NCBI RefSeq assembly: GCF_014839805.1
Contig: NC_051116.1
Coordinates: 7,235,556-7,299,555, forward strand
Source of the DNA: Manduca sexta
Lineage: Eukaryota; Arthropoda; Insecta; Lepidoptera; Sphingidae
Direction: 5' to 3'
DNA: 64,000 bases
Part shown: positions 15,345 through 41,400 of the stretch, one piece after another
Layout: every line of letters starts with the position of its first letter
Numbering within the stretch: position 1 is the stretch's first letter
Notes under the pieces: generated by a model
The model's input: the letters and a program-made list of their open reading frames with translations, nothing else
Databases searched by the model: none
What the model was told of the DNA's origin: nothing
Position numbers and translations under genes: made by a program

Positions 15345-17260
15345 GCTATGTATGTACGATTATTTATTTAGTATTAATTACATGAATTTAAACTCCGAGG
15401 TATGCGCATTAGCGTCCCACAGTCACTTCACCTCACTTACACTTACAATATGAGACACTAAAACATTGATATACCATTTAATGAACTATTAAAGTCTCTT
15501 CATACACTAACGCAGCGCAAAGTTTAGACAAAACGCGCGCATCCGATCTCTGCGAACAGTTCCACTCAGAGACAATGCGGAGTAACTGCGGCCGCGGCGG
15601 CGCTCCGCCCCACAGGCGCCTGTCGCACGATTCTAGACTCTATCTAGTGGGTTCTGAGTACGGTTTTTGTTTACGTTCCTGTCGCGTCGCGTTCGCTATC
15701 GCATCCCGTGCGATCCCGTACGCGAGAAAATACAAAATCGTCTTTAATTTTCATAAGTGAGCCCTGTGTCTTATAAAAACTAAGAGGATTTTATATTTTG
15801 TACCAATTTGTAACTGTTTTTGTGTGTGATTTGCGATGGACGACCGTCTGTAGTCCAGAGCGACGCCGCCGCCGACCGACTTACTATAAATATACAAAAA
15901 ACATTTTTGGTCAGTTTTTAAATACAATTAAATCTGTAACGGCTAATAGAAATACTGATGTAGCAGACTAGAAAGTTTTTCGCACAAATTAAATGAACAT
16001 TGTTTGAACTTACATCTACGTATAAGAAACGTCACATACATTAGTAAAGTTATTAACGAACATTAACTCGCCTAAGGCTGGCGCGGCGGCCGCGGGACCC
16101 GGCGGGGCCTGGCGGGACCCAGCGGGACCTGGCGGGACCCGACGGGAACACGGCGGCCGCTCGACGCTCCAAGTGACAGTACAATATTAAAATTTACACA
16201 TCGATGGAAATATAACGCAAACTCCCCGTTCGGAGATCACTTCGCCTCAGGTAACGTTTACCCGTATCGCTTAATTAAAATTCTTATATAGTACAATATT
16301 TTGTACAAATACATTCAATCGGCGCGGTTCGGGCGTCACTTACAACCTGTACATTTGGCGGTAGTTTACACGAACACAGCTAACGCCATCTATCGTTGAC
16401 TTTTCAAACTAATCAGATCTTTAATTTCCCTTCAACAAGAGAATAAATAAATGCATACGTGCAGTAACTACAGATTCCGTACAAAACATCAACATTCATA
16501 AACCTCTCAGATCCATGTTGCAACTAAATAACAGATGGCGCCCAAACTTCGCCGACACATAAATAAGCTTTTAAAATGTCAAATATAATTATAACAATAG
16601 ATATGTTAACTTTGTATATTACATTCAATGTCCTCGCTGTCCGTCACTCGAAGGAAATCACTAAAATGTGTAACATGGAAGACTGACAGTTGTGATGCGG
16701 GGATTGCCATACCACTATACAGGGTGTTTGTTGATTCCAAATGACATTCGGTATCAACTTTGGTATTAATTTTATCGACAGTCGATATTTAAATACCCAA
16801 GTCCCAGCCTTCAACCCATGAGTAGGGAATAGGATCGTGAGACCAACACCCAAGAATATTGGTATACGCAGTTCAGTATCAACACTATTTGAACTCTAGA
16901 TTACCGTTCAGAACTGCCATTAAGCAACTTATACTATTTCGAAATTTGTATTAAACCCCCACACAATGCACCGCTTAGATCATATAACATTTTAGACATA
17001 TTTTAAACATTTATGGCAGCATTCAGATAAACCGAAACAATTTAAAACACATTTAAATATGAATTTCAATTTTCACTTCACACACAACTTGGATTCTGTT
17101 AATCCATTGAGGTCCTCACAGGATATAGTCCGGGGTGTCACATATAGCTTTCCATGGCTTCCATAGAGGTCAGTTTCAGTCCTCATACTTGGTGGATATT
17201 CTCCGGGATATCCACTTAGGTGTCCGTGGGTCCTGGCACGTGTCCCCCGGCGGTGTGGTG
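15345..17260 (-). other. Probable 3'UTR of Spred
   Basis: No second gene is seen between the Spred stop and the AT-rich sequence near 15340. TTTATT at 15363-15368 is AATAAA on the - strand and is the best poly(A) candidate; an interspersed repeat begins just beyond it. The interval holds two GC-rich patches (15550-15730 and 16080-16160). The 1.9-kb length is inferred. Confidence 0.4.
16080..16160. repeat. GC-rich minisatellite in the Spred 3'UTR region
   Basis: Several turns of a 10-11 bp unit near GCGGGACCYG, between two GGCGGCCGC blocks, in otherwise AT-rich sequence. Confidence 0.7.
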
Positions 17261-17408
17261 CTAGTCGTGGTCCCTGGGCTGGTGGTGGTGGGGCGCGTGG
17301 GCGCCGCCGGCGAGGTGCGCGCGCGCCGCTGCCCGGTGAGCGCAGCGCAGCGGCACGTAGCAGCACAGGCACGGCACCACCAGGCTCAGAGCCACGATCG
17401 CCACCCAT
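17261..17408 (-). CDS. Spred: Spred last coding exon: end of SPR domain
   Basis: Acceptor gtgtgcag; the exon runs to the TAG at 17261-17263. It encodes [28 protein letters not shown] and a His-rich end ([11 protein letters not shown]). The hydrophobic Cys-rich run is the palmitoylated membrane-targeting segment in Sprouty/Spred proteins. The tail after LRC lacks the further cysteines (CHxCG type) I recall from vertebrate Spred. Confidence 0.95.
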
Positions 17409-20400
17409 CTGCACACCATTACAATGTGTTTATTACTAACATACAATATTCAGTTATATTAATATAGTTCGGCCAGGAAAATAAAGAATCTGCTTTGAGA
17501 GTGCCAGTTTTGTTTTTTGGCGTGGTTTGGATTTTCCTGTTATGGATATATACTTATAGTTTTACGTGTTAGCTCATAACTGTACCAATGATTGTGACTA
17601 TGGCCAATAAGGAAGGCGGATTTGTTATATTTAATAAAAATGTAAGTGTGAGTGTTGGAACACATGTAGCGACACCCGCTTATTGATCATTGATTGAATA
17701 ACCGCCGCATCCACAAGTTGAATAAGAGATGAACGTTTTAAGTCTTCTACCAACAGAAATAAGACTCAAATTTCAAAATAATCGATGTACTTACATTAAA
17801 AATACATACGCGTTGAGAATCTCCATTTTGAAGTTGATTAAAAAAATCGATATAACTGAATTAAGAGCGTTTACGCATCCGCGCCCCGTATGTCTCAAAA
17901 ACAGCACTTTTCGAAGGAGATAATATCCATCAAAACATTATTTTAAAAACATATGAATTAGTAATTATTATAGAAAATTTTGCTGTCTAAAAAGTTAGTA
18001 GAGAAAATTTTTAGATTTATTGAGTATTTGTAAATTGTTTAATGATTACTGAACAGAGGTTTTCAAATTTGCGCTTCGAACGTCTATTTCGAAGCTCAAA
18101 ATATGTTAAACCACTAAGGAACATAACAATATGTTATTTTTATCTAACTAAAAAGATCCTGAAGAAAAAGTTAGTAGAGAAAAAATATCTTTTTATGTTT
18201 AATTCATGAGAAATAAAAATTCAAAGAATTCGAAAATTTCAGAAATGTTGGTCATTTAAATGATTTTTTTATCACTATATCTTACTTAATTGAATATAAT
18301 ATTGGATTACTATAATAGAAGAACATCTCCTTAAAAACATACAATTTAAAAATTCTACAAAATTAGTTCTGTTATTTTTCTATAAATATTTTAAATACCA
18401 CTATAAAACGCAACGCGCAAATCGTTTCAAATTAGTCCGCCTTGAGGCTTTCTAGAGAGAGGACGTATCGCTCGTCGCTCCGGCGAGACTCCAATTGGAC
18501 TTCGCTGTGCGTAGAAAAAATAGTCACGTGTATACAGTGATTGCCACATCTTAGTACTTTAGTAAGTAAAATATTTTTTCTTTAATGATTGACAATAATT
18601 TTAGTAGTTACTATAAATTATTATTATATTATTATGTTTCAGACACAATGGGAAGTAAAGCTATTTCTAGGCAAGAAAAGGAAACGTAACAACGCTGAAA
18701 CTTCGGCTAAAGCAAAAGCTAAAAGATTGATGTACTAATGTTATAACATGCGTCTGTAGTTATGGTTGTTGCTTTTTTTACTCATTAAACACTTGAGCAT
18801 AGTTACTCGAAGGAAAAAATGGAACCTTAAGCTAAAAACAATTAGCCCATTTAAATGTTACATGAGCTTTGTATTTTTAGAGGACCCAATTTTATTTTTA
18901 GAACATGTGTGGGGGGTCAATAGAAGCTTAATCTCAAGTTTGTGAGGTCGCCCCCCTTGTCCCCTGGCCGCCATCATGGAAAAAGTGGTGAAAACACTTT
19001 ATTCGCGATATCTCGGAAACTATGCGTCTTACATAAATTTTGTAAAGTCATAATTTGTAGCAAATTGTTTTGCCTACAAATATGTTTATAGAACTTTTTG
19101 CCCTAAATTAAAAATTAAAGAAGTTATAAGCAAAAATGTGAGAAAATGTTTATAAAAGTTTTCTTTTTTGCACTATAACTTTTTTTTTTACATTTTACAA
19201 AAAAATTACCTCAAACTAACTTGTAAATGATCTTTTGAGGAAAATTGTTCCCTATATTTTTTTTTTATTTCATTCATTTAAAACGCTGTTACAGCGCTCC
19301 AAAGTTTACCGGGTTCGTCAATGCTCATGAGAATCCGGTCGAAACAAAATGTTTAACTTATTTTTGATTTTTTTTATGGTAAATATATTATTACAATTTT
19401 TTTGTTAAATTCGTACAACTTTACTTATTTATTCCTAACTCTTTTCTTTGCCATAGAACTTACCAAATTTAACTTCTCGAATGTTATGCAGGTAGAAAAG
19501 GTATGAGTTACCATTTGGGGATAAAGGAGAAAATAAACATATTTGCAGGCAAAACAATTTGCTACAAATTATGGCTTTACAATTTTTTTGTAAGACGTAT
19601 AGTTTCCGAGATATCGCGAAAAAAGTGTTTTCACCCCTTTTTCCAAGATGGCGGCAGGGGGACAAGGGTGGCGACCCCACAAACTTGAGGTTAAGCTTCT
19701 ATTGACCCCCCACACATGGCCCAAAAATAAAATTGCGTCCTCCAAGAAATGCAATATTCGGTCCTTAAATTGTAACATTTCAATGGACTAAACGCACATT
19801 TCAAAACTCGTTTTACGCCCGCGGCGTGCGCGGTTGTATGCGGTACCCGCTGTATTGGCGGCCAACTATTAGAATCGTGCGGGCCACGGTAGCACCAGCG
19901 CGCTCTGTGGTTAGTAGGTGGGCGACTGCAGTAGTCGGTAGGGAAGGGGTGGTTACAGAAATCTGACGCCATTTTCCTCCATCGTGATCGTTTCTGATAT
20001 TTGTCCATGGCGTTCTGGAACTCAACTGACCGTTAACTGTCCATCTTGTAACCGCCCGCCTTGCGATAATCGCTCGCCAAGTTTGCAGGACATAATCGGA
20101 ACCGCGGTGGTTACAAATCGCACAGATCTCCGGTCGTCATGAGTTTGGAAATAAAACAGCCGTTTCTCAACCACGGCGGGCGCGAGTAAAAACCGCTTCG
20201 TGAGTTCTTAGCCTTATAGAATCACTTTGCTGTCCCGTTGTCAAAACGTTTACAACTCGCCAAATACCCATTGCGCGAGTCCCACTCGCACTTGGCTGAT
20301 TTTTTGCATAATGCATAGGTACGCTTACTTTCAAATAACAAGGTTTTTGTGTTCACTGATGCGCACTGTTAAGAAAATTCAAGTGACGAGAGACGGAATC

Positions 20401-23400
20401 CTATATCTTTCTCCTCTTTGAACCTTAGAAATAAGGGATTTGGTAATTTATGTAGCTAGTGAATAAAACTACTAGTAGTAGTTAGTATACCTATCTTCTT
20501 AACTATTTGGGCTAGTTTAGGTTTACACGCTCACATCAATTTTACATATAATTTTATACTGACGTTTAACCCTGTGCAGGTTTCGGCGTCATTATACTTG
20601 TATAAATTAAACGCGTCTAGATCCATATGCAGTTTTATTTAAGTATGTAGTGTTTGCGTAAACTTCGATAACAATAATAGTATATTCTATATATTTTTTT
20701 TATTTTTAGGTAATCGTGCCTGATATTACACTCAAAATAAATAAGGTTATTAAAAGCCGCAAAATTATAGATTTTCAATATTTTTTGGATCAAATTAAAA
20801 CACTCAATAACCACAACAGAGCAACAGGTTGTAGTATCGAACATTTACAACTATTGAAAGAGAATGTTTGCTTGCAGTCAACATTTTTAATGAAGTGTAA
20901 TATGTGCAATATGGAATTTAAGCTATTTAAGCGCTAAGAGATATACTGATAGTATGGACGTATATCGTGGAACTGTGAATGGAGCTATGATGACTGAAGT
21001 TGGTAGATCAAATTTAAACGAACAGTTAGCTTCCATAGATTTACCAATATTAACGCAAAATGTTTACATGAAATGTTACGACGAGTTAGCTAAATGATTG
21101 AAATTAGCTGCAGAGGACAGGATGCAAGAGGCCGCTAGGGAAGAAACTGATAAAGATGTTGCCTGTGGCGATGTAAAAGACGGTATTCCCATATTTACAG
21201 TCAAAGCTGACTGCTGTTGGTAAAAAAAAGGTACAGAACCATCTATTTTGCTTCGTCGTGTGTCGCAAATATTATGCAAAACTATGGATATAAAACTGGT
21301 AAATTGTTATACATGGATGTACAATCGATCGATTGATGATCGATGTCACTGAGAAGCAATACCTATTAAAAAAACTATCCAAAAAAATATAACCAACTTC
21401 CGAAAAAAGAAGTCTTTTATTTCTCACTTTTTAGTTATACACTTAAAAATGACATCTCATTACATACACCTTCTGACTCAAAATATAAATTCCAATATGT
21501 AATTTCTAATGACTTAATTTAAACTTTCAATACGCTAAATATTAAAAACTGCAGATCTATGGAGTAATTATGTGGTCCATTATAAACATCGTAGCACAGT
21601 AATTTTCCTGATTTATTGTCTGATTACGGAGTTCTGGTGCCTATCTTTCGGCTTCATGATGAGCTCCACTTTACTAAAGGGTACTTTCTAAATGCAAATG
21701 CTTAAATTTTTTAAGCATTTGCATTTAAAAGTGAAAATAACAATTTGTAAAATTGCCGTTAAAATTTGTTAAAAATGTTTATTTTTTTTTATAATTACAA
21801 AATGATACATATAAACTATTTCATGATGAATTCTTATATATTTAATAATAGAATTCTTCATTTATCATAAATTCATAAATCATAAGTTACATTCCAATTA
21901 GATAATTAAAGCGAAAAGATCAAAATTGGTTGGTCTGACTATAAAGATAGCCGATGCGCTAACTCTACGCACACAGCTACGAAACGGCTCTGTGTGAGTG
22001 AATTTTGCGAAGAATTACCTATAGTTGACTTCACGCGCGGCACGTAAACGCTCTTAAGGCAAAAGGGTTACTAGAAATGTACAGAATATATAATTATCTG
22101 TACGGACACAGTAAACTGTCCCTGATTGCAAGAAATGGTTAACTCTCGCCAGTCGACATAATAATGCCGGCCTGTATGAAATCGGTTGTACACAGGTTGT
22201 TCCTGGAACCGACACGCTTACGCCACTATGGCGGGTCTTACACCCTCGTGTCTTTTGGTTGCTATCTGGGTGGATACAAAATAACCAACATGTAAAAAAG
22301 AGCTGTAAAAATAAGTTATATTATTATTAATCAACTTAATACTATTTACCGCACGGCGCAGGTGGTGTGAGGCGGTGCGCAGGCGCAGGGTCGGTTCACG
22401 GCGTCGCCCTCAGAGTCCCATCCGCAGTGGTACACCAGACACTGGAAGACATTATTTAAATTAGTACTATTCCCCTAAGAGGGTTCATAATGACAGACAG
22501 GTGACCGTAAAATTAAGTCAAATATTTTTTGCAATATGTTGTTCAAAGGTGTTGCTTGGAGACCGTTGATTGTTTTTCTATCAATTTTTACATTGATTGC
22601 GGTTTGGTATGGATTTTAATATTGTCAGAATCATTTTTATAAATTGACGAATACTTTCTACCTCTCATTCTGCCCAGTACTAATTATATAATAACAAAAA
22701 CACGTCACGTCTTTATCCTTGAAGGGATAGGCAGAGGTGCAACCAGGATACCTGCTGTTAACCTGTGTTCCTTCCCATGTTGTGATAGAGAGCGTGCCTA
22801 TCGACATATCGAGCATTAATTCTAGACTTGATACTGAGTAGAAAAACCTAATATAATTTTGCCTGACCTGGGATTGGAATCCAGAACTTCAGAGCCGTGT
22901 CGTACATCTAATATAACTTCACCGAGGCATTATATGCAGAAATGTACTCCAAAAATTGTATAGAAGAAAGAAGAAATATAAGAATAGAATTGAGAGATTA
23001 CTTATCAATAGTTTTGGGACTATTAGGTAATGTTTTCTTTATTTGTTTTATTTTAACACTTTATTGAACACCATAAGTATTAAAAAAAATATGTTAACGT
23101 TTTTTATAGCAAAAGCCAAAAATGGTTCATTATGATACGTTCGCGGCGCATTCATTAGACACATTTTGATTATAATCAGTGCTGGTTCTCGGTCGCCCCA
23201 CGTTGTAGTTAAGGCGCTAGTTTCTAAGGGGGAGTCTCTACCTCCACCGTCATCATGCACTTGGGACCTTAAAAAATCATATCGAAATAGTGGCACAGTT
23301 TTCTTTCGCCTAAAGCACCGTAATAGGTCAGCTAAGCGTGGATCATATTTCGTCCGTGACATGGTACAGCCACATGGTAAAAGCGGCGATAGCCTAATTG

Positions 23401-26400
23401 GATGTGGAATGGACTTCCAAGACGAATGTCCGCAGATTCAAATCCCAAGGGCACACACCTCTGACTTTTCTAAAATCATGTGTGTATTCTTTGTGAATTA
23501 TAGTTCGCTTTAACGGTGAAGGAAAACATCGTGAGGAAACCTGCATATCTGAGAAGTTCTTTATAGGAACTTCGAGGGTGTGTGAAGTCTACCAATCCGC
23601 ACTAGGCCAGCGTGGTGGACTAAGGCCTTACCCTATAGTAGTAGAGGAGGCCCGTGCCCAGCAGTGGGACAGTATATAATGCAAGGCTGTTATTATTATA
23701 TAGCAGCGACCCGCCCCGGCTTCGCACGGGTGCAATGCTGATATTAAATACACTACAAAAAAACTGTGAACGTTTTATATAAAAACATAGCGGCCCGCTC
23801 TGGCTTCGCACGGGTATAACATAACAAAATAACAGTATTTCTCCACTATTTAATGGATGTTATTATACATATAAACCTTCTTCTTGGACCACGCTATCTA
23901 TTAAAAAAAAACCGCATCAAAATCCGTTGCGTAGTTTTACAGATTGAAGCACACATAGGGACAGAGAAAGCGACTTTGTTTTATACTATGTAGTGATATT
24001 ATACTAATGTTAGTGTCCGGTCCAGCCCCCCCCTAGTACCTGCGCGCACTTGATGCAGGACACGCAGTCGACGCAGGCGCGGCAGCAGTCGGGCGCGTAC
24101 TCGCACGAGCCGGCGCGGTTGTGATATTATACTAATGTTAGTGTCCGGTCCAGCCCCCTAGTACCTGCGCGCACTTGATGCAGGACACGCAGTCGACGCA
24201 GGCGCGGCAGCAGTCGGGCGCGTACTCGCACGAGCCGGCGCGGTTGTGATATTATACTAATGTTAGTGTCCGGTCCAGCCCCTAGTACCTGCGCGCACTT
24301 GATGCAGGACACGCAGTCGACGCAGGCGCGGCAGCAGTCGGGCGCGTACTCGCACGAGCCGGCGCGGTTGTGATATTATACTAATGTTAGTGTCCGGTCC
24401 AGCCCCCCCCTAGTACCTGCGCGCACTTGATGCAGGACACGCAGTCGACGCAGGCGCGGCAGCAGTCGGGCGCGTACTCGCACGAGCCGGCGCGGTTGTG
24501 ATATTATACTAATGTTAGTGTCCGGTCCAGCCCCCCCTAGTACCTGCGCGCACTTGATGCAGGACACGCAGTCGACGCAGGCGCGGCAGCAGTCGGGCGC
24601 GTACTCGCACGAGCCGGCGCGGTTGTGATATTATACTAATGTTAGTGTCCGGTCCAGCCCCCCCCTAGTACCTGCGCGCACTTGATGCAGGACACGCAGT
24701 CGACGCAGGCGCGGCAGCAGTCGGGCGCGTACTCGCACGAGCCGGCGCGGTTGTGATATTATACTAATGTTAGTGTCCGGTCCAGCCCCCCTAGTACCTG
24801 CGCGCACTTGATGCAGGACACGCAGTCGACGCAGGCGCGGCAGCAGTCGGGCGCGTACTCGCACGAGCCGGCGCGGTTGTGATATTATACTAATGTTAGT
24901 GTCCGGTCCAGCCCCCCCCTAGTACCTGCGCGCACTTGATGCAGGACACGCAGTCGACGCAGGCGCGGCAGCAGTCGGGCGCGTACTCGCACGAGCCGGC
25001 GCGGTTGTGATATTATACTAATGTTAGTGTCCGGTCCAGCCCCCCCCTAGTACCTGCGCGCACTTGATGCAGGACACGCAGTCGACGCAGGCGCGGCAGC
25101 AGTCGGGCGCGTACTCGCACGAGCCGGCGCGGTTGTGATATTATACTAATGTTAGTGTCCGGTCCAGCCCCCCCTAGTACCTGCGCGCACTTGATGCAGG
25201 ACACGCAGTCGACGCAGGCGCGGCAGCAGTCGGGCGCGTACTCGCACGAGCCGGCGCGGTTGTGATATTATACTAATGTTAGTGTCCGGTCCAGCCCCCT
25301 AGTACCTGCGCGCACTTGATGCAGGACACGCAGTCGACGCAGGCGCGGCAGCAGTCGGGCGCGTACTCGCACGAGCCGGCGCGGTTGTGATATTATACTA
25401 ATGTTAGTGTCCGGTCCAGCCCCCCCTAGTACCTGCGCGCACTTGATGCAGGACACGCAGTCGACGCAGGCGCGGCAGCAGTCGGGCGCGTACTCGCACG
25501 AGCCGGCGCGGTTGTGATATTATACTAATGTTAGTGTCCGGTCCAGCCCCTAGTACCTGCGCGCACTTGATGCAGGACACGCAGTCGACGCAGGCGCGGC
25601 AGCAGTCGGGCGCGTACTCGCACGAGCCGGCGCGGTTGTGATATTATACTAATGTTAGTGTCCGGTCCAGCCCCCCTAGTACCTGCGCGCACTTGATGCA
25701 GGACACGCAGTCGACGCAGGCGCGGCAGCAGTCGGGCGCGTACTCGCACGAGCCGGCGCGGTTGTGATATTATACTAATGTTAGTGTCCGGTCCAGCCCC
25801 CCTAGTACCTGCGCGCACTTGATGCAGGACACGCAGTCGACGCAGGCGCGGCAGCAGTCGGGCGCGTACTCGCACGAGCCGGCGCGGTTGTGATATTATA
25901 CTAATGTTAGTGTCCGGTCCAGCCCCTAGTACCTGCGCGCACTTGATGCAGGACACGCAGTCGACGCAGGCGCGGCAGCAGTCGGGCGCGTACTCGCACG
26001 AGCCGGCGCGGTTGTGATATTATACTAATGTTAGTGTCCGGTCCAGCCCCCCCTAGTACCTGCGCGCACTTGATGCAGGACACGCAGTCGACGCAGGCGC
26101 GGCAGCAGTCGGGCGCGTACTCGCACGAGCCGGCGCGGTTGTGATATTATACTAATGTTAGTGTCCGGTCCAGCCCCTAGTACCTGCGCGCACTTGATGC
26201 AGGACACGCAGTCGACGCAGGCGCGGCAGCAGTCGGGCGCGTACTCGCACGAGCCGGCGCGGTTGTGATATTATACTAATGTTAGTGTCCGGTCCAGCCC
26301 CCTAGTACCTGCGCGCACTTGATGCAGGACACGCAGTCGACGCAGGCGCGGCAGCAGTCGGGCGCGTACTCGCACGAGCCGGCGCGGTTGTGATATTATA

Positions 26401-29400
26401 CTAATGTTAGTGTCCGGTCCAGCCCCTAGTACCTGCGCGCACTTGATGCAGGACACGCAGTCGACGCAGGCGCGGCAGCAGTCGGGCGCGTACTCGCACG
26501 AGCCGGCGCGGTTGTGATATTATACTAATGTTAGTGTCCGGTCCAGCCCCCCCTAGTACCTGCGCGCACTTGATGCAGGACACGCAGTCGACGCAGGCGC
26601 GGCAGCAGTCGGGCGCGTACTCGCACGAGCCGGCGCGGTTGTGATATTATACTAATGTTAGTGTCCGGTCCAGCCCCTAGTACCTGCGCGCACTTGATGC
26701 AGGACACGCAGTCGACGCAGGCGCGGCAGCAGTCGGGCGCGTACTCGCACGAGCCGGCGCGGTTGTGATATTATACTAATGTTAGTGTCCGGTCCAGCCC
26801 CTAGTACCTGCGCGCACTTGATGCAGGACACGCAGTCGACGCAGGCGCGGCAGCAGTCGGGCGCGTACTCGCACGAGCCGGCGCGGTTGTGATATTATAC
26901 TAATGTTAGTGTCCGGTCCAGCCCCTAGTACCTGCGCGCACTTGATGCAGGACACGCAGTCGACGCAGGCGCGGCAGCAGTCGGGCGCGTACTCGCACGA
27001 GCCGGCGCGGTTGTGATATTATACTAATGTTAGTGTCCGGTCCAGCCCCTAGTACCTGCGCGCACTTGATGCAGGACACGCAGTCGACGCAGGCGCGGCA
27101 GCAGTCGGGCGCGTACTCGCACGAGCCGGCGCGGTTGTGATATTATACTAATGTTAGTGTCCGGTCCAGCCCCTAGTACCTGCGCGCACTTGATGCAGGA
27201 CACGCAGTCGACGCAGGCGCGGCAGCAGTCGGGCGCGTACTCGCACGAGCCGGCGCGGTTGTGATATTATACTAATGTTAGTGTCCGGTCCAGCCCCTAG
27301 TACCTGCGCGCACTTGATGCAGGACACGCAGTCGACGCAGGCGCGGCAGCAGTCGGGCGCGTACTCGCACGAGCCGGCGCGGTTGTGATATTATACTAAT
27401 GTTAGTGTCCGGTCCAGCCCCCTAGTACCTGCGCGCACTTGATGCAGGACACGCAGTCGACGCAGGCGCGGCAGCAGTCGGGCGCGTACTCGCACGAGCC
27501 GGCGCGGTTGTGATATTATACTAATGTTAGTGTCCGGTCCAGCCCCCCCCTAGTACCTGCGCGCACTTGATGCAGGACACGCAGTCGACGCAGGCGCGGC
27601 AGCAGTCGGGCGCGTACTCGCACGAGCCGGCGCGGTTGTGATATTATACTAATGTTAGTGTCCGGTCCAGCCCCCCCTAGTACCTGCGCGCACTTGATGC
27701 AGGACACGCAGTCGACGCAGGCGCGGCAGCAGTCGGGCGCGTACTCGCACGAGCCGGCGCGGTTGTGATATTATACTAATGTTAGTGTCCGGTCCAGCCC
27801 CCTAGTACCTGCGCGCACTTGATGCAGGACACGCAGTCGACGCAGGCGCGGCAGCAGTCGGGCGCGTACTCGCACGAGCCGGCGCGGTTGTGATATTATA
27901 CTAATGTTAGTGTCCGGTCCAGCCCCTAGTACCTGCGCGCACTTGATGCAGGACACGCAGTCGACGCAGGCGCGGCAGCAGTCGGGCGCGTACTCGCACG
28001 AGCCGGCGCGGTTGTGATATTATACTAATGTTAGTGTCCGGTCCAGCCCCTAGTACCTGCGCGCACTTGATGCAGGACACGCAGTCGACGCAGGCGCGGC
28101 AGCAGTCGGGCGCGTACTCGCACGAGCCGGCGCGGTTGTGATATTATACTAATGTTAGTGTCCGGTCCAGCCCCCTAGTACCTGCGCGCACTTGATGCAG
28201 GACACGCAGTCGACGCAGGCGCGGCAGCAGTCGGGCGCGTACTCGCACGAGCCGGCGCGGTTGTGATATTATACTAATGTTAGTGTCCGGTCCAGCCCCT
28301 AGTACCTGCGCGCACTTGATGCAGGACACGCAGTCGACGCAGGCGCGGCAGCAGTCGGGCGCGTACTCGCACGAGCCGGCGCGGTTGTGATATTATACTA
28401 ATGTTAGTGTCCGGTCCAGCCCCCTAGTACCTGCGCGCACTTGATGCAGGACACGCAGTCGACGCAGGCGCGGCAGCAGTCGGGCGCGTACTCGCACGAG
28501 CCGGCGCGGTTGTGATATTATACTAATGTTAGTGTCCGGTCCAGCCCCTAGTACCTGCGCGCACTTGATGCAGGACACGCAGTCGACGCAGGCGCGGCAG
28601 CAGTCGGGCGCGTACTCGCACGAGCCGGCGCGGTTGTGATATTATACTAATGTTAGTGTCCGGTCCAGCCCCCCCCTAGTACCTGCGCGCACTTGATGCA
28701 GGACACGCAGTCGACGCAGGCGCGGCAGCAGTCGGGCGCGTACTCGCACGAGCCGGCGCGGTTGTGATATTATACTAATGTTAGTGTCCGGTCCAGCCCC
28801 CTAGTACCTGCGCGCACTTGATGCAGGACACGCAGTCGACGCAGGCGCGGCAGCAGTCGGGCGCGTACTCGCACGAGCCGGCGCGGTTGTGATATTATAC
28901 TAATGTTAGTGTCCGGTCCAGCCCCCTAGTACCTTCGCGCGCACTTGATGCAGGACACGCAGTCGACGCAGGCGCGGCAGCAGTCGGGCGCGTACTCGCA
29001 CGAGCCGGCGCGGTTGTGATATTATACTAATGTTAGTGTCCGGTCCAGCCCCTAGTACCTGCGCGCACTTGATGCAGGACACGCAGTCGACGCAGGCGCG
29101 GCAGCAGTCGGGCGCGTACTCGCACGAGCCGGCGCGGTTGTGATATTATACTAATGTTAGTGTCCGGTCCAGCCCCCCCCTAGTACCTGCGCGCACTTGA
29201 TGCAGGACACGCAGTCGACGCAGGCGCGGCAGCAGTCGGGCGCGTACTCGCACGAGCCGGCGCGGTTGGCGCTCTCCAGGTACCACTCGTGACAGTGCCT
29301 GTTGAGTTAAACATTATTATTGTAATTGATTACTATAACTGTGGAACACTACGTCTCTACCACTGAGGAATTTTGAGAATGTACGTAAGGTCTTTGCAAG

Positions 29401-32400
29401 GAATGGTGGTCATTGGTGGTAGGTCTCTCATATGTGAGAGTCCGCCTGGGTAGGTACCACTGCAATGTCTATTTCGACCGCCAAGCAGCAGTGTGTAGTC
29501 ACTAGTTTGAAGGACATTGTAGCCAGTGTAACTGCTGAATATAATAAGACATCTCATGTCTCAGGATGGCGAGCGCAGTGGGATACCGAACAATTGTAAC
29601 TCAAGGTGTTACTGTTTCTACTGTTTATGGGCGGTCGTATCGTTTACCATCAGGCGAACAAGCTCGCCTCGACATTCAAAGTAATAAAAAAAGTTTTTGA
29701 AGTCTTCCTACTCTTTGGCATGATGAGTAACACTATGCAAATAACTTATGGGGTTCTATACTATATGGACATTGTTTAGACTATATGGAATTTGCATATT
29801 TTCTGGCATTTTTTTCATGTCTATTATTGGAATCGAATATATATTTCATTTCAATAAATTATGATTTTTTACTAAAATGAAATATATTGTTATTTTTTTA
29901 TTACTTTTCTTTTAATGAATAATTAATACATGGCATTATTTTACTATTGTCTTAAGAGCCTATTCAATCTTGAATGATTATTTCCATTTTTACATAACGG
30001 CAATGCTCCCCGAAGCATGTATAGTAAAAGGAAACGGGTTGCTTTTGCTGCTTAGACAGAGTATTTTAAAGTTGCATACATTTAAAACACTGAGGTACAA
30101 AGGGCAAACGGGTGTCGCGGGTTGGCAAAATGGCGGCCCGCTTTCGACTGACTGCCTACGTGACGTGTGGCCGTGGTCTTTATTCGTTCATATTCTGGTA
30201 CTGGTTGTATTGTTAACGTTATTGTATGAATGTAAGTAGTGTTATTATCGTAAATATTCAATGTATGTATACTGTTATCGTGCAATCTATACTATTATAT
30301 AAAGCTGAAGAGTTTGTTTGTTTGTTTGTTTGTTTGTTTGTTTGAACGCGCTAAGCTCAGGAACTACCGGTCCAAATCGAAAAATTCTTTTGCGTTGGAT
30401 AGCCCTTTGTTCGTGGAGTGCTATAGGCTATATATCATCACGCTATACCCAATAGGAGCGGAGCAGTAATGGCTCATCTTAGGAAATACCGGTCAAAACT
30501 GAAAAATTCTTTTGCGTTGGATAGCCCTTTGTTCGTGGAGTGCTATAGGCTATATATCATCACGCTATACCCAATAGGAGCGGAGCAGTAATGGCTAATC
30601 TCAGGAAATACCGGTCAAAACTGAAAAATTCTTTTGCGTTGGATAGCCCTTTGTTCGTGAAGTGCTATAGGCTATATATCATCACGCTATACCCAATAGG
30701 AGCGGAGCAATAATGAAACATGTTGCAAAAACGGAGAAAATTATTAGTTTTGAGAGCTTCCGTTGCCTGCGCTGCGTAAACGGTTAAAGTTATGCAACAA
30801 TGATGTATGACGGGATTGTTCCTCTTAAAAAATTCTAAAAATATATTATAAAACAAAGTCCCCTGCTGCATCTGTCTGGCTGAACGTGTTAAACTCAAAA
30901 ACTACCCAACGTATTAAGATGAAATTTGATATGGAGATAGTTTGAGACCCTGGGAAGAACATAGGCTCCCGGGAAACTACTACTTTTATAACGGAAAACT
31001 TTAGCCTGAAAAACTTTATAACGCGGGCGGAGCCGCGGGCAAAAGCTAGTCTTTCTTATAATTTTTCTTCTTCTTGCTCTGAAACCCTTAAATGTTGTAT
31101 ACTCCTGTAAAGGCATTTCATACTGTAAAAATTCCTATATATTTAAATATCGTTATATTGTATTGTGACATGTCGTTGGTGTAACTAGTAAATAAATAAA
31201 TAAATAAAATAAATATTGTCGGATAATAAACATACCTGCATTTGAGCCGTCCCTGGAAGGTTTCGATGGTTTTCTTCCCTGGCAGTGGCGGAGGCGCGGT
31301 GTACGTGGACTTCTTTAGCGACCCTGCAAGTTATACATTATGATTAAGAACTAAGTAAAATTATAAACGTGAGTTTCTGGAGATTTTTGGGGTGTATTTG
31401 AGATGAAAGCAGTGGTTGCGGAACAGATTTAGATAAATATTTACACACAGATAGGCTATGCTTTTTATATTGATCATATAAAGGCTACTTTTTTCTATAA
31501 AAGTACATGGTGCAACTTTAGTTCTGAGAAAGAATCTACGGACTAATATAGTAGTAGCTTTTGCTCGTGGATTTAACGTGAAAAATTACGTTAGTAATAA
31601 AATAATGAAGTAATCAAACATTTAACCCTATATATTCATTTGTGGCAACTGTGTGCCGAAGAATGGTATTATCACCTGAGTCCCTTTTGAGTAGCGGTGG
31701 CTTGGTGTTGGGCGTGGACTTCTCCGAGCTAATGACGCCTTGACCCTGCGGGTATGTGTACTCGTGCACCTGCAATAAAGATAATAATAATAATATCAGC
31801 CCTGTATTATATAACGTCCCACTGTTGGGCGCGGGCCTCCTCTACTACAGGGCCCTTATTCTCTATCCCGCACGTTATTTTAACAGCGCGTAACAAGCAC
31901 GGAACACAACGCGTCATGTTTAGGACTATAGAAATTTGGCTTACAGAATACCATTCCACGCACATTTCTCGAAGATAACATGACACGGCCGCGTTACGCG
32001 TTTACACTATCATACAGAATAAGGGCCCTGAGAGGGATATAAGTAGTTTATATTATTTCGTTGTCTATTTAAGATGTATAAAAAAATTCAGAGAAACATA
32101 AAAGCTAAAGTTAGTAATCTGAATTGTACTCCAAAACTTGTGCCCAATCATGATTATTGTAACTATGATATGTAAAATTAAAAATAAATATTATGGTTAC
32201 ATTCAACTAACTACCTGAATTAAATCTTTCTAAGTTTCATATTTCCTCCCTAATTAATTTTGTGTTTTTACGCTCATTATAAACTTTGCTGAATTGCTAT
32301 TCATGATGTCAATTTGCTTATGTGTTTGCTAAATCATGGAACACGTTAATATTATTAGCTTTGCAGTTAGAATAGTCAGTGATTTTGGGTCCTTTTTTTA

Positions 32401-35400
32401 TTTCGTTTTAACAAGGCAGGTGTGTCGTTCGCCTGATGGTAAGCGATACGACCGCCCAACAGTATCAATATTTCTTTCCTTTATCCGTAAGTATTCTAAT
32501 GATATTGGGTTTTCAGTCCAATATCTGGAGTCTGGAGTGTCTGGCGATGGGATCGTCCCATCACATCATTGGTCGGAATACACATAACAAAAGTTTGTGT
32601 ACAGGTAGCGTAGGGATGTGAGCGTGCACGTGTGTATTTACATACATACATAACATCACGCATTTTATCCCCGAAGGGGTATGCAGAGGCGCCACTATGG
32701 CACCCACTTTTCGCCAAGTATGTTCCGTCCCATGATGTGATAGGGGGCGAGCCTATCGCCATATCGGGCACAAATTCCAGACTCCGGGCTGATACTGAGC
32801 AGAAAAACCCAAATATCATAAATAGTGTGTATTTATGTGTGCTTGTACACGTGTGTTTATGCATTCGTGTACGTGTTTGAGTGTGTGCGTTTGCATGTGT
32901 ATAATAGTGTGTGCGTGAGGGTGTGTGTTTGTGTATGTGTGCGTGTACGTATGTTTGTGCGTTCGGGTACATGTTTGTGTGTATGCATGCGTGTGTTTGT
33001 GTGTGTGTGCGGATACTCACGGCGGATAGTTGTACGTAGTGGCACCTCTCGTTGTCGTCCTCGGTGCTGGTCTTCTCGTCGTACTGCACTTCGTACTGCT
33101 TCATCGACTCTGCAACGGATATTTATTGACGTGTGAGTATTTTTGCGGATATATTTTTGTAACCAAAATTTTAATTGAAGATGGCGGATTGTACTTTGGA
33201 GTTTTAAAGTGATTATGAATATACTAAATATCCGATAATACGGCAACATTCGGATATACAAGAAATGCCTATGCTATGCCCAAGAAATGTTGACTATATT
33301 TGCCCACTAAGCTACAGCAAATCCGTTATGGTTCGGATATGGCAGAAATCCGAAAATATCCGAAAAATATTCCCGTTGTATTACCGTGTCCGTTGAGCGG
33401 GTGTGCGGGCAGCGTGATGGGCGCGAGGATGGGAGTCTGCAGGTCGCGCCGACCCTCCTCGCGGGAGCCCCCCGACGGCAGGTTCAGGCACTGCACAACA
33501 AACACAACTGGCGACTGGCGACTGGCGACTAGCGACCACTACTACTAAGCTACTAAACTAATAAGTTATGCATGGAAAACACGTCAAATGGTAAACTATA
33601 CACAGAGGAAATTTCACATGGAGAAAGTTATATGATTCTTAATGGTAACTCAAAGAAACGAAACTTTGAACGAATGAGTCATGAGGGAAAGTATTTCATA
33701 GTTTCAGGATATTACATATATACAAACATTATGATTTTTTTTACATGAACTATTACATAAACAGGCTTTGTGTGACAAAAATACATTGCAGTGATTGTTA
33801 CCTCGAAGATGTTTTGTTCCTCGTCGTCCTCTTTGGGCGCTGGGTTGTGTTTTTTGTACGCGTGAAGTGATGGCCATGCCCCACCCAGACCTGAACACAA
33901 ATGTATCAATGTATTTATTTAGGGTTGACAGAGGTCTAGTTGGATTGCTATTGAGGGAAGTAGACAATTAATATTTCCAACTCCTCCTTATCTTTCTATT
34001 TGATTAATTTCGTTGCGGGATAATGAGAAATTAGTTTTCCCTGAGACTCGGCGAGCTTCACTGCTCGGTGTCATAAAATGCGTGTCACTGATGATCCTGA
34101 CTTACAGGAGTTGTAATGGTGGGTGTCAGGGCGGGAAAGTCTCTAGAGGTCTAGTTGGACGTATTGGGAAAAAGGGTAATTTATTAAAGTCTGTTGAAAA
34201 ATATCCGAATCTGCCAGCCTGTTTGACAGTATTTGATTAGTGTTTTATTTAAGTTTTATAGAAAAATATCCGAAACCAAACTGGCGTGGCGAAAGGGATC
34301 CCGACATAACTTATAGGTGGTTATACTAATGATAATTAAAATTTCACATAAATTACAAAAGGGAAGCCGGCAAGAATCAGGCTTTATATACAGGTTAGAC
34401 TTATAGCCTTTTCACTCTAGTGGTATTAATATTAATACGACTACCTGTAAGGTTTTGAGTTTAAGTAACCACAAGTATCATCAGAGTTGACTTGTCAACA
34501 CTTTCTAGAGATCATACACCAGGGACTAGACAAGATGGCTTTCTACAACCGTTAATGGTGATAAAAAAAAAGTCACAGAAGATCGCTGGATGCGGGCCGC
34601 TGTCAATAGGTCGACCTGGACATCTTTGTGGGAGGCCCATGTCCAGCAGTGGACATATTTCGGCTGATATGTTTGATCGACAAGTGTATTACTAGGATAT
34701 GTCACTCTTAGATCAGTAAAGCAGAGAACTGTGACGAAAATGGTACCCACTTTTGGTGCCTTAAAAAATTGATTTATTTTAATATGTTTAACTCACCGTG
34801 GAGAAATCCAGTATACGGTAGGGGAGGCAAAAGAAAACACATTAGATAAATTAGTTCACAGGGTACTTTTACACATTCCATATAATAAAATAAATTGTAC
34901 TTCAATAGTATTTGTAGTACATTGGTATATACCGAACATTTTCGAATATCGATATATATGTACTACGTAAATTTGGCGTACCGAACATTCATTGTGTTCA
35001 ACTGAATTGAACTGCAATCCATTCAAATTGATTTAAGCATGATGTCAATATTGATGCTTTTGGTTGTGTACGTAGTAGCGCTCATAATATAAAAACGCGA
35101 GACTAAGTGCAAACCTGGATGTGAATAAAAAATATTAGTCAAATAAGGACAATTATTTGTTGTACAAGGGAATAAATAGGTTATAACAGTGACGTTTTGG
35201 TTGCCATTTTAGTTCAGATTTTGAACAAATAGTTTATATGGACGTTTGAGTCTATAGAATATACGTCAATGCTTTCGATCTTATATGTGAACCACAATAC
35301 TTTTTAAGCGAGTACCAAGTGACCCCACTGTATCTGATGGTAAGTGGTGTGGGGTCCAGACTGACGACTAATTAGAGATGATTACCCCTTGCCAGTCTAC

Positions 35401-38400
35401 ACAATTATGCCGGTTTGAAACTGGATATACAGGCTGATCCCAGAACGCGACTCACTTGAGCCACTATGGAAGTTTTTTTGTATACGGTCGCTATGGGCTG
35501 ATAGTCTACCTCCAGTTTGACATCGCATTTTAAATATCGTTAGCTCATTATTACAAGGATCTGTTTTATATATTTTTATGTACAAATTAAGTTATATACA
35601 AGATCTTTTGTCATTTCCTTACTAAATGAAACCACATACTTATCTTGAACACTACAATAAGTTATTCAAACCGTAGATGTAAAATAAAATAGTGTAAGTT
35701 TGGAACAAAATAAATATCAAAAGTGATTTTAATCTTGCACGTTACTGCCACTACTTTAAGAAAATTCGTCGCAGCGGCAACATCACACATTAATTTAGAA
35801 ACACACTTACAAACACGACATATTCGCACTTACAAAATGATAAAAAAATCAATCAAAATCTAAAATCATCCTTATAAGAGAGCCAGCGATATGTCGAACA
35901 ACGATGGAAGATGAATGTATCATTCGCTAGACTAATTGCATTTACACGAGCTACATAATTAGTATATGATGTATAAAGTTGCTAGAGTACTAAAACACAC
36001 ACACTCTCGCCTTTTATTCCGGAAGGGGTAAGCAGAAGCACAACTGGTGTGCCTACTTTTCGACGTGCGTATTCCCATGATGTAAGGAGTCTATTGCCAT
36101 ATTGGGCACGAATTTTAGACTCCGGGCTGATACTAAATAGAAAAGCTTAATAGCACTTTGCCCGAACCGGGGGTTTAACCCAAGACGTCAGCAGTACAGT
36201 CACTGTAATACAACTACGCCACTCTACTTCTACTTGATATAGCTGTTATTATATCATAGACACGCCCCACGTCTTTCTCTAACCGCCTACCTACAATATC
36301 CTTATTCTTCCATTTTTTATTAGAAATTTGGTCCTTCAACCCAGATATAACTAACAATGCATGGATACCATTGGTATTGTAAATGTAATTTGTAATTACT
36401 TTCTGTCAGGTGATCCCTTGCTCCTTGGTTTTTTTAGAATAGAAAAATCTTACTTCCAGTTGCCAATTAATATAATTATTACGTCAGCTATATTATTAAG
36501 ATAGATAGCGTGGAAGCCGAGGCTCGGATCCGATCTCTTACCGCGCGTCGTCCCCAAAAAGTGGTGTGGCGTGTCTTTATTAATGAAATAACTTATATGA
36601 GTTGAATATTAGAGATTAACAGGAATAATTTTGTGTAACACATTGTAACTGCTGTTATAGTAATCACTAGCGACCCGCCCCGGCTTTGCACGGCTGCAAT
36701 GCTGATACTAAATACACTACAGAAAAACTGTGAACGTTGTATATAAAAACATAGCGGCCCGCTCTGGCTTCGCACGGGTATAACATAACAAAATAACAGT
36801 ATTTCTCCACTATTTAATGGATGTTATTATACATATAAACCTTCCTCTTGAATCACTCTCTCTATAAAAAAAAACCGCATCAGAATCCGTTGCGTAGTTT
36901 TAAAGATTTAAGCACACATAGGGACAGAGAAAGCGACTTTGTTTTATACTATGTAGTGATTACTACCTAACGCATAATATGATGTTAGTTTTAGCTTAAC
37001 TTTGAGATTAAATTTTATATATTGTAATGATGTTATAACACATTGTATTGTAATTTTGCACGTCATTTGACTAAATATGGTAAAACACTATTTTATAAAA
37101 CACGCCACCTAATAATGTACCCATATTTGCAAAATAAATAGATTGATATTTCTCAGTTGTTCATTGCCATGTTGAAGCAATCCTATAGCCCCGTCTTCCA
37201 ATAGCTCCTTACCCTATTCCCACAGCAGCTTACCGTCTAACAGCTCCTCGATGGCAGTCCGGACTCCCTTGTCGAAGGCCCTCGCGTCTGCAGCCGTCTG
37301 GAAGGTCAGCCCGAACCGCTTCTCGTCAGTCACCCAGTGGTGGAACGTGGGCATCACCTTGTTGTACTGGAAGTCTTTCTTCACCGTGCATTCTAACACC
37401 ACCTGGAAAGATGGTATATGTTTTTAAGTACAGTTTTGCGGAATTTTTAACTGTGAAATAAATCTATTATAATTTTCTCTCGAAGAAATTGGAGGCCTTC
37501 ATGGCCAGGGGGAGAGGGGCTAAAGTATTTAAGTGCATATTCTGTCAATATGTGCACAATGGCATGCATTGTGTTTTTATAATCGTTTATATTAAGTTTA
37601 GTTTATATTAACTTTAACTTGTAACTGTTTTTGTCCGGGTTGAAGGACCAAAAAATTCTAATATGGCTGACTAAATAATTATATTGTATGTACAGTTGGA
37701 AGCAAGATTTTTGCAAGCAAGTGGGTCATCTGAAAAAAGTAATTACCTATAAACATATTCAATACTAATTGTATCAATGCGTTGTCAGATATATCTGGGT
37801 TGAAGGACCAAATTACTAATAAGCTGAAAAACTAAGGATATTTTAGGTAGGTTTTCAATTCAAGACATGCAATCCGCTACCCTGATGGTGATAATGACGT
37901 CATTAACCTTATGCATGGGCGTGCACAGAAAGACATTTGCCACAAGAATAGCCACGTTGGCGTCATGAGCGAAGTGCGGGAGCTTAGCTTACCAGGTCTA
38001 CCCATCAGAGGCACTGCATAAGCTTCAACAAACCATGGTTCAAGTTTAAGGATAGGCAAGGTTCGTGGCAAAAAAAAAGCGACGATAGCCTAGTTGGGTG
38101 TGGAACGGACTGCCGAGACGAATGTCCGCAGGTTCAAATCCCAAGGGCACACACCTCTGAGTTTTCTAAAATCATGTGTGTATTCTTTGTGAAGTTATCG
38201 TTCGCTTTAACGGTGAAGGAAAACATCGTGAGGAAACCTGCACATCTGAGAACTTCTCTATAGAAATTTCGAAGGTGTGTGAAGTCTACTAATCCGCACT
38301 AGGCCAGCTCGGTGGACTAAGGCCTAATCCCTCTCAGTAGTAGAGGAGGCCCGTGCACAGCAGTGGGCAAGTATATAATACAGGGCTGATATTATTTTAT

Positions 38401-41400
38401 TATTATTATAAGGTTCGTGGTACATACCATATTATCGCTGATCCGTTTGCCGTGTATGTAGTATTCGTGCGTGGGCGTCGACACGATCGCGGAGGTGGAT
38501 GTCGTGTCGCTATTACTATCCCCACCTGCTAACAGAAGAGGATAAGTCTTTATTTAAGGGTTTTGGTATAGATGTATATAATTTTGCAAGTGTTAGAGTG
38601 TGGTTTGACTGCCTCGGTGGCGTAGTTGTATTGCATGTCCGGTACAATAGCGCTCTGAGGTCCTGGGTTCGAATCCCGGGTCGGGCAAAGTGATATTTGG
38701 GTTTTTCTGCTCAGTATCAGCCCGGAGTCTGGAATTTTTGCCCGATATGGCGATAGACTCGCCCCCTGTCACATCACGGGACGGAACATACTTGGCGAAA
38801 AGTGGGTGCCCTAGTTGCGCCTCTGCATACCCCTTCGGGGATAATTGCGTGATGTTATGTAGAGTGTGGTTTTTGTTTGTTATTTAAAGGTATAGTTAGA
38901 AACTATTTGTAACTAAATTATGATTGCAAGAATGTTTTCTAGCATCGTGTTTTATAGTGATATGGAATTTTCCACGTATTTGACAACGTAAGCAACAGCA
39001 AAAATGTTATCTATATATTTAATTAGAATTAGTGGGTACAGTCAGCCACATAATTACCTGAACAAATACAAAATTTTAAATCGCGTTTTACCTTTTGTGT
39101 CCATATCAACAATGGTATTTTTCAATAAAATAACCTTCCAATTTTTATCTTTATTTTAGATAAAGAAAAAATAATATTTCATCTGAAGTTAACTACTTTT
39201 GTGGCTGACTGTACATTAGTAAGCATTTTTATACATATCCTGTTATAAACAATAACGTTTATTAATTGCAATAGTTATACACAAAGCAACCGGAATCACA
39301 CTAGCTGATCAACATGAATCAAGAACAATTCAGAATAAAATAATCAAATAGTAACTATTTTAAACAATGCTTTTGTTTATCAATTATATTATGAAATACA
39401 ATGATTATTGCAGAATGTATGTATTTATTTTTCTTCGTTCCTTTAATATAATAGATTCTATTTTGGATACTTTGACGTAATTCCATTGTAATGTTATCTA
39501 CATTGATCGTCCATATTTAATTATTTATAATATTATATTTTCCCAGCGTATGTAATGTATTATTTTATTCTTAGTTCCGCGTCCTGCGATCGAAGTACCG
39601 TAATAATACTATTAATGCAAAATGAACCGTAAACTTACCTAACATAACATTTCTTTTATTACGATCGCTTATGTCTGGACTACCATCTAAGCTTCGAAAT
39701 TCAAAATTTTTTAATGAGAGATAAAGAGTCATGTGTTTTGAATTTCGAACTTAGGGCGGTAGTCGAGACGTAGTTTGAACTTTGAATCAAATCAAAACCC
39801 ATGACTATCATTCCAAGTTCAAACTACGTCTCGACAACCTAAGTTCGAAATTCAAAACACATGACTCTCCGTCTCTCATTCCAAGTTCAAAACGAGTTGA
39901 CACTATTACCCCAATCGGGGTTCTAAATTCAAAACCCATGACTTCCGAGTTCAAAACCCATGACTTCCAAGTTCAAAACCTAACTCACCGGATATCCTGT
40001 GCGTGTGTGGCGCGGGCCGCTTGCCGACCATGACGTCGGCCAGGCCGCCGCCGCCCAGCGCCACCCACCCGCCCGTGCCCTCGTCGCGGCACATCACCTG
40101 CGCTCGCACACGCACCAGATAGGCACTGGAGACAAGTAGAACGGTACATTATAGTAGACAATAACAACCGCTATAACTAGGTAATAATAAGCGGTTGCCT
40201 AGTTGGTTGTGGAACGGACTGCGGAGACGAATGTCTGCAGGTTCAAATCCCAAAGGCACACCTCTGACTTTTCTAAAAAATTATGTGCATTCTTTGTGAA
40301 CTTATCGCTTGCTTAACGGGAAAGGAAAACATCGTGAGGAGCTGCATACCTAAGAAGTTCTCTACAGGAATTTTCGAGGGTGTGTGAAGTCTACCAATCC
40401 GCACTAGGCCAGCGTGGTGCACTAAGACCTAATTCCTCTCAGTAGTAGAGGTCCGTGCCGAGCAGTGAGGCAGTATAGTATAGGGCTGATATTATTATTA
40501 TATACACCTTGAGTTTTCCTAACTTGGACTTACATTATAGCTATAAGTTATAATATTTTAATTATTGTAATCGTAGTGTTGTCTTTTTTTCTCGCTGGAA
40601 AATATGCGTTTTAATCAAGTCTGCTGGAAAACTTAACAAAAAATATCTCTTGAATTTTCAAGAGAGGAACTTGTTGTCTTTGCACTTGTACGAAGAATAA
40701 AACGTGACATTTATTTAATATTAAATTAGCGCATAATATAATGGCTGTAAATGTGCCAACCAATAGTGCGTAGTCACTTGTGTTCCGGTTTAAAGGACAT
40801 TGTAGCCAGTGTAACTACTGGACATAAGACTTAACATCTCATGTCTCCGGATGGCGAGCGCATTGAAATACCAAACAATACTTCTTAATTCAAGGTGTTG
40901 GTGTATCTGCTGTTTATGGGCGTATCGCTTACTATCAGGTAAACGGCAAGCTCGTCTCGTCATTCAAAGAAAGAAAAAAATCTAGGTAAAGCCTGAGACC
41001 CGGTAAAGGACAAAGTTGACTGACCTACTTACCCATCCCGGGATGGACGTCAGCAGTGGGTCTGATCCGTATTGACGTAGGTCAATACCGGGTGAAACTG
41101 CAGTTTTTATAGTGAAAATCGGTTGTAACGATATTGAAGGGATCTCACCTAGACGCTATATCCAATAGTTATGACCGGTTTCTTTTTAATATCACGTTTT
41201 TTTCCTTTGTAATCACCAAGATATGTCATGGGACCTATTCTATGTAATAAAGACTTATATGTAATTGATTGCCATTTAACGGCCAGACCCCAAGCTAATA
41301 CTAAGCAGAAAACCTCAATACCACATTGCCCCATCAGGGATCGAACCCTATACCTCAGCGCGTCGTACCGCGATACAACTAAAAAAGCCAGGCCTAAATC

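Follow-up and report, generated by a model that had tools for sequence, protein, structure and literature searches.

We analysed 64,000 nucleotides of the Manduca sexta genome (NCBI RefSeq assembly GCF_014839805.1, contig NC_051116.1, positions 7,235,556 to 7,299,555 of the forward strand), referred to below as the window. On its minus strand lies a Spred gene, and one intron of this gene holds a long tandem array made of the end of the preceding coding exon, the splice donor of that exon and a short piece of intron. The gene carries both hallmarks of Spred, an EVH1 domain (Pfam PF00568, E 1.4e-8) and a C-terminal Sprouty domain matched by the three joined 3′ SPR exons (PF05210, E 1.9e-23), which agrees with the identity proposed in a first-pass annotation of the window. 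The array and the features that border it are listed here in window positions (a slash marks a splice site or the boundary of an element).

29187..29298, minus strand: complete SPR exon 1 of Spred (112 nt), whose final 81 nt make up the exon portion of the array unit
29181..29186, minus strand: functional (first) donor GTACTA, after which frame and domain continue into the exon at 22441..22350
23993..29267, minus strand: array of 42 head-to-tail units of 124-128 bp
23703..23996, minus strand: non-autonomous Helitron, 5′ A/TCACTACATAG, 3′ CTGC/T, adjoining the array on its downstream side
22350..22441, minus strand: Spred SPR exon 2 (CLVYHC...), the next exon past the array intron

The intron between the two SPR exons (29186..22442) is about 6.7 kb long, and the array fills its first 5.2 kb. 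The exon piece and its donor are thus arrayed within their own intron, between SPR exon 1 (which ends at 29187) and SPR exon 2 (which starts at 22441), as the first-pass annotation had stated. Tandem Repeats Finder (TRF) reported a single array at 23993-29268 (42.0 copies, 98% matches, score 10071), and cutting the minus strand at the exon motif AACCGCGCCGG gave the same 42 units that had been counted before. The array cannot be due to chance, and the TRF result likewise rules out a simple repeat.

Read on the minus strand, each unit consists of 81 nt of the exon end (one fewer than the 82 nt first given for this piece), the donor GTACTA, a G tract, CTGGACCGGACACTAACATTAGTATAATA and TCAC, after which the next unit begins. 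The intron part measures 39-43 nt with the donor included and is followed by TCAC, the first 4 nt of the adjoining Helitron. The first unit is the end of the real exon, and the last unit continues into the Helitron. Every extra unit lacks the first 31 nt of SPR exon 1 and its acceptor, and every unit junction joins TCAC, 4 nt inside the Helitron 5′ terminus, to base 32 of the exon (AACCGC), with a single base (C) shared by both breakpoints. This Helitron edge was absent from the first-pass annotation and was found here.

Outside the G tract, 41 of the 42 window units are identical. The single deviant unit (28764..28888, minus strand) has 2 extra nt directly before the donor, giving GCGAAG/GT instead of GCGCAG/GT. 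The sequence CAG/GTACTA is therefore present at the real donor and in 40 units (41 exact minus-strand matches to CAGGTACTAG), with AAG/GTACTA in one decoy, so that the 41 decoy donors formerly described as identical are 40 identical ones and one variant. Most of the variation is in the G tract, which has 4 G in 16 units, 5 in 9, 6 in 3, 7 in 6 and 8 in 8. Its mean length differs among the thirds of the array (5.4, 4.7 and 6.5; P 0.008), and the first and last units both have G8. For higher-order periods, the best lag was 9 (P about 0.02, uncorrected for the 15 lags tried). A coding repeat was ruled out, as the G-tract lengths and stops break the frames. Near-identical head-to-tail units of tens to more than 100 bp are what defines a minisatellite and, judged by its sequence, the array is an intronic minisatellite built from a coding exon end and its donor.

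We searched the assembly from which the window came (470 Mb, 4056 contigs; all counts are lower bounds), in which the window lies on contig C2. There were at least 74 matches to the array sequence, and among the matches listed all were at the Spred locus on C2 or on a second contig, C1128, with no third array locus. By these listed matches, all at a single locus of about 5 kb, a dispersed satellite is ruled out. Satellite DNA forms many or very long, abundant arrays, which were not seen here, and the term used in the first-pass annotation overstates the case.

C1128 (21,183 bp) matches window positions 39532..17202 nearly end to end. Its flanks are 98-99.6% identical to the window (99.6% over 10,270 bp and 98.8% over 5,044 bp), with 13 mismatches in 10,270 bp upstream of the array and, downstream, 19 in 5,044 bp and 15 in 1,697 bp. 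The divergence is 0.13% on the upstream side and climbs to 0.38% and 0.88% downstream. The array occupies C2:7259548-7264822 in the window and C1128:10253-14494 in the second contig. In C1128 it has the same edges and the same junction, 34 units and different G-tract lengths: G4 in 16 of the 34 units and G5 in 14, with 4 G after the first donor where the window has 8. Outside the G tract, 31 of the 34 units equal the window unit. The remaining three have a G tract broken by T, a change of CTAAC to CAAAC and, in the last unit, GTACCAG at the donor. When the orders of G-tract lengths in the two arrays were aligned (with 3 entered for the interrupted tract and 7 for the last one), they aligned no better than shuffles, that is, without colinearity.

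C1128 looks like an unmerged haplotig of the Spred locus. Because its unit number, tract lengths and private changes differ from those of the window, the comparison suggests that it was assembled independently and, with its own unit number and tracts, one or few real units are unlikely. The first-pass annotation had named long reads with one or few units as the sign of an assembly artefact. The contig, with its 34 units and other G tracts, answers this in part and weighs strongly against a simple artefact. Provided that C1128 is the other haplotype, the unit number differs between alleles (42 vs 34).

The founding junction is common to C2 and C1128. Across the 76 units of both arrays, the changes amount to one change within the G tract, two substitutions elsewhere in the unit and an insertion of 2 nt. 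If the units had remained static since the haplotypes parted, between 5.7 (from the long flank) and 12.5 (from all flanks) substitutions would be expected; the three substitutions seen, one of them in the G tract, are fewer than the 12.5 (P 0.0016). This weak test fits homogenisation or recent growth, because the units are more alike than the flanks. As the copies are almost all identical, gene conversion among them would leave little trace.

The element at the downstream edge was classified by its ends. A second copy of the same family, which shares 95.2% identity with it over 293 bp and has the 5′ end in common, lies in another Spred intron, farther upstream.

36667..36959, minus strand: second Helitron copy, with the canonical ends A/TC and CTAG/T

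The ends were defined on 30 genome copies, 2 of which are the Spred locus on C2 and C1128, and were counted by eye. The base before the 5′ TC was A in 27 of the 30, and 3′ CTRR (R = A or G) followed by T was present in 26. In another sample, for which the 5′ end was the sole criterion (5 of its 30 copies shared with the first sample), A preceded TC in 26 of 30. The family thus has a 5′ TC after A and a 3′ CTRR before T, as Helitrons do. Its 30-nt 5′ end was found in 1820 genome copies with at most one mismatch, and a reversed control pattern in 0. A short GC stem is predicted directly before the 3′ end (without a shuffled control), and the Helitron replicase domain PF14214 is matched 7 times in the genome, with the top match lying in an open frame of 1118 aa. 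Neither the end pattern in viral and prokaryote collections nor the element in phages gave a match, and TCACTA is absent from the main text of a silkworm Helitron paper (PMC3789558; term search).

The copy at the array has a 3′ end (CTGC/T) off the family consensus CTAG/T and is about 4-5% diverged from its nearest relatives. Its insertion would be older than the array, because it is 4-5% diverged whereas the units are identical. Since every unit carries the Helitron TCAC joined to the exon, the Helitron would have been present before the array. Insertion of the Helitron into a pre-existing array was ruled out: beyond its 3′ side lies other DNA, not the rest of a unit. A repeat of up to about 200 bp (23500-23702), which directly adjoins the Helitron and recurs at about 7 other places in copies 80-90% identical, is one that we take to be like a short interspersed element. 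The 3′ flanks of family members outside Spred (28 copies, L014-L041) have CTAG/T in 23; in 21 of these 23, ATAA occurs within 14 nt of host DNA, where 2.6 would be expected from the next 300 nt of the same flanks. It seems that the family favours targets in which ATAA closely follows the A/T site.

With regard to splicing, the acceptor of SPR exon 1 is attached to no donor but the first. The predicted U1 pairing of CAGGUACUA is -7.1 kcal/mol, and the Spred donors range from -5.3 to -8.9 (the last scored as a 10-mer). If donor 1 is read through, an in-frame stop follows after 9 codons (window) or 49 codons (C1128). The pyrimidine fraction over 20 nt is 0.40-0.75 for the Spred acceptors (n = 7), 0.45-0.60 for the AGs of the unit and 0.55 for the unit CAG/GT. 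AATAAA and ATTAAA are absent from the sense strand of the array.

These observations are, quite probably, best explained by a young, length-variable intronic minisatellite in Spred that was founded by an exon-Helitron duplication and is tolerated by the gene. An old Helitron copy would have lain downstream of the exon, about 40 nt from its end. A single duplication, by template switch, end joining or nick repair, would have joined the Helitron 5′ terminus back to the exon, with one breakpoint 4 nt inside the terminus and the other at exon base 32. Unequal exchange, replication slippage or rolling-circle synthesis would then have expanded the tandem before the two haplotypes diverged, and the number of units and the length of the G tract would have gone on changing. 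Growth after the founding step requires nothing special. In this history the array is probably tolerated because its units have neither the acceptor of the exon nor its first 31 nt. By exon definition, the acceptor at 29298 would pair with the nearest donor, and the array would leave with the intron; transcripts running past donor 1 would soon hit a stop in the window, and in C1128 a frameshift and then a stop. The decoy donors, judged from this anatomy, look weakly competitive.

Several points weigh against this explanation. C1128 could be a segmental duplicate rather than a haplotig, and the numbers of units per molecule may differ from the 42 and 34 of the assembled contigs. With the long flank alone as the reference, the deficit of substitutions (3 vs 5.7 expected) does not reach significance (P 0.18). 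Decoy donor 2 of C1128 precedes the read-through stop; its use would give an exon of 236 rather than 112 nt (+124 nt), with a frameshift instead of an immediate stop. Cryptic or recursive acceptors within the array are possible, because pyrimidine content fails to separate the unit AGs from the acceptors of the gene. Normal splicing from donor 1 is an expectation, if the simplest one.

Alternatively, excess units could have been built during assembly from one or a few real ones, or the G-tract differences could be read errors. The unit bodies are nearly perfect, and most of the variation is confined to one homopolymer, where long-read consensus errs. The G8 tracts of the edge units and the low middle third of the window array also look as if the edges had been better corrected. 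However, the first unit of C1128 has G4, contrary to this idea, and that contig differs in unit number, G-tract profile and private changes, the tracts of the two arrays are not colinear, and unique flanks are present on both sides in both contigs. The array with its flank (about 5.3 kb) is within the range of single long reads. We therefore regard an artefact as highly improbable. It is unlikely, though less so, that the Helitron itself drove the birth of the array. Here a transposase nick at A/TC would free a gene-side 3′ end, which would copy 4 nt (TCAC) and return about 124 nt, repeatedly or round a small circle, so that the array would form directly upstream of the Helitron 5′ end. In every unit, one breakpoint does lie 4 nt inside the mapped 5′ terminus, and the replicase matches are present in the genome. 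The Helraiser transposase cleaves the boundary between flank and 5′-TC on the top strand, according to the consulted part of PMC4778049, and a review (PMC12628747), in the part consulted, reports arrays that have Helitron parts at just one side and that may stem from aberrant rolling-circle replication. It could be counted in favour that 11 bp of the 5′ terminus are repeated in tandem at 5 places in the family, of which about 3 are independent by their flanks. These tandem copies of the 11-nt TCACTACATAG (L044-L048) are at C15:2657688, C18:15454227, C18:15461106, C15:10793717 and C3461:262756, and may be recurrent plain slippage at the left terminus. On the other hand, none of 53 other sampled copies had a comparable array reaching the 5′ end when 1.5 kb upstream of each was scanned (28 copies for periods of at least 20, 25 further copies for periods of at least 15; two have like flanks), and a general tendency of the family to amplify upstream DNA was thus not found in these copies. 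The nearest to comparable were a 15-bp repeat of 2.2 copies ending 15 nt away (L076) and an 11-bp repeat (L041). Moreover, the known model amplifies Helitron sequence, not upstream DNA, the copy is old with its 3′ end off consensus, and the coincidence of the breakpoint was spotted post hoc. A nick at the Helitron terminus leading to template switching, as the founding step, is a fair hypothesis.

An active role for the array seems very doubtful. On such a reading the 42 U1-type donors, G tracts and AG/GT junctions would adjust how Spred is spliced or how its transcripts are completed, and the number of units would be of consequence. The donor 9-mer is intact in 40 of the 41 extra copies, its U1 pairing is mid-range among the Spred donors, and the sense strand is free of AATAAA and ATTAAA; yet the intactness of the donors is accounted for by youth, and unit number differs by 8 between the contigs. 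Least probable of all is a ladder, born at the Helitron 5′ end, of CAG/GTACTA recursive splice sites or U1 landing pads, with unit number (42 or 34) setting the speed or completeness of Spred processing. Any splice that joined the first donor to a CAG of the array would restore a donor, which would allow stepwise removal of the intron with the mRNA unchanged.

The array may be compared with several known systems. Like intronic minisatellites or variable number tandem repeats in general, it has near-perfect head-to-tail units (about 125 bp) at one locus in a number that varies between contigs; unlike them, two-thirds of its unit is coding exon with its donor, taken from the exon just upstream. 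New introns were made in potato RdRp by a tandem duplication across an exon-intron boundary (PMC4974935) and in Drosophila by coding duplications with proto-splice sites (PMC2891723), as described in the parts of these papers that were consulted. As there, a segment bearing a splice site or proto-splice site was duplicated within its own gene with AG/GT in the repeat, and each Spred unit contains AG/GT; in contrast to those cases, Spred has 41 extra copies, all within an existing intron. Helitron-linked tandem arrays are described in the consulted part of the above review, which cites Xiong et al. 2016 (PMC12628747). The Spred array likewise adjoins a Helitron end on one side only, but the arrays described there repeat the Helitron or DNA carried by it, whereas the Spred array repeats the host gene upstream of the 5′ end with 4 nt of Helitron. 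It also resembles satellites born from genes or transposons (the same part of PMC12628747 and general knowledge) in being a homogeneous tandem array from a non-satellite source, and differs from them in being about 5 kb at one locus, dispersal or megabase arrays not being found. In a limited literature search, mostly without subscription papers, we found neither an exon-plus-donor array of tens of copies within its own intron nor the Spred array itself.

The gene model has seven exons whose splice sites were checked. In addition to the two SPR exons above, they are as follows.

39989..40125, minus strand: probable Spred EVH1 exon (splice sites; we presume the likeness to Spred EVH1)
37234..37402, minus strand: Spred EVH1/WH1 exon (PF00568 match and splice sites)
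33385..33490, minus strand: Spred upstream exon (CLNLPSGG...; splice sites and frame only)
33021..33109, minus strand: Spred upstream exon (ESMKQYEV...; splice sites and frame only)
17261..17408, minus strand: final exon of Spred, containing the stop codon

The exon ending at 33021 is in phase 0, yet the exon at 29298 requires two upstream bases; therefore an intervening exon is absent from the model or one splice site is wrong. No Pfam family was found for the exon preceding SPR exon 1 in one query (a Kit-binding domain was not sought further in the middle region), and queries with single exons to PDB and Pfam gave no matches. Two other repeats lie in or near the gene. In the intron upstream of SPR exon 1 (30312-30715), a (GTTT)8 tract is followed by three 122-bp tandem copies, presumably akin to the lepidopteran Lep1 Helitron. 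A GC-rich 10-bp minisatellite, GCGGGACCCG, is present in 6.4 copies at 16092-16156, 3′ of the Spred stop codon.

The locus is a natural experiment, in which a coding exon of a Ras/MAPK regulator is directly followed, on two contigs that are probably haplotypes, by 41 or 33 extra copies of a real donor. Should the splicing of Spred prove normal, the locus would provide an in vivo measure of the power of exon definition and proximity over dozens of like decoys. It also shows a minisatellite caught early, with its founding junction still legible, at the terminus of a rolling-circle transposon. Because that junction can be read at the Helitron terminus, a link between Helitron ends and the tandem amplification of adjoining host DNA becomes testable in related species.

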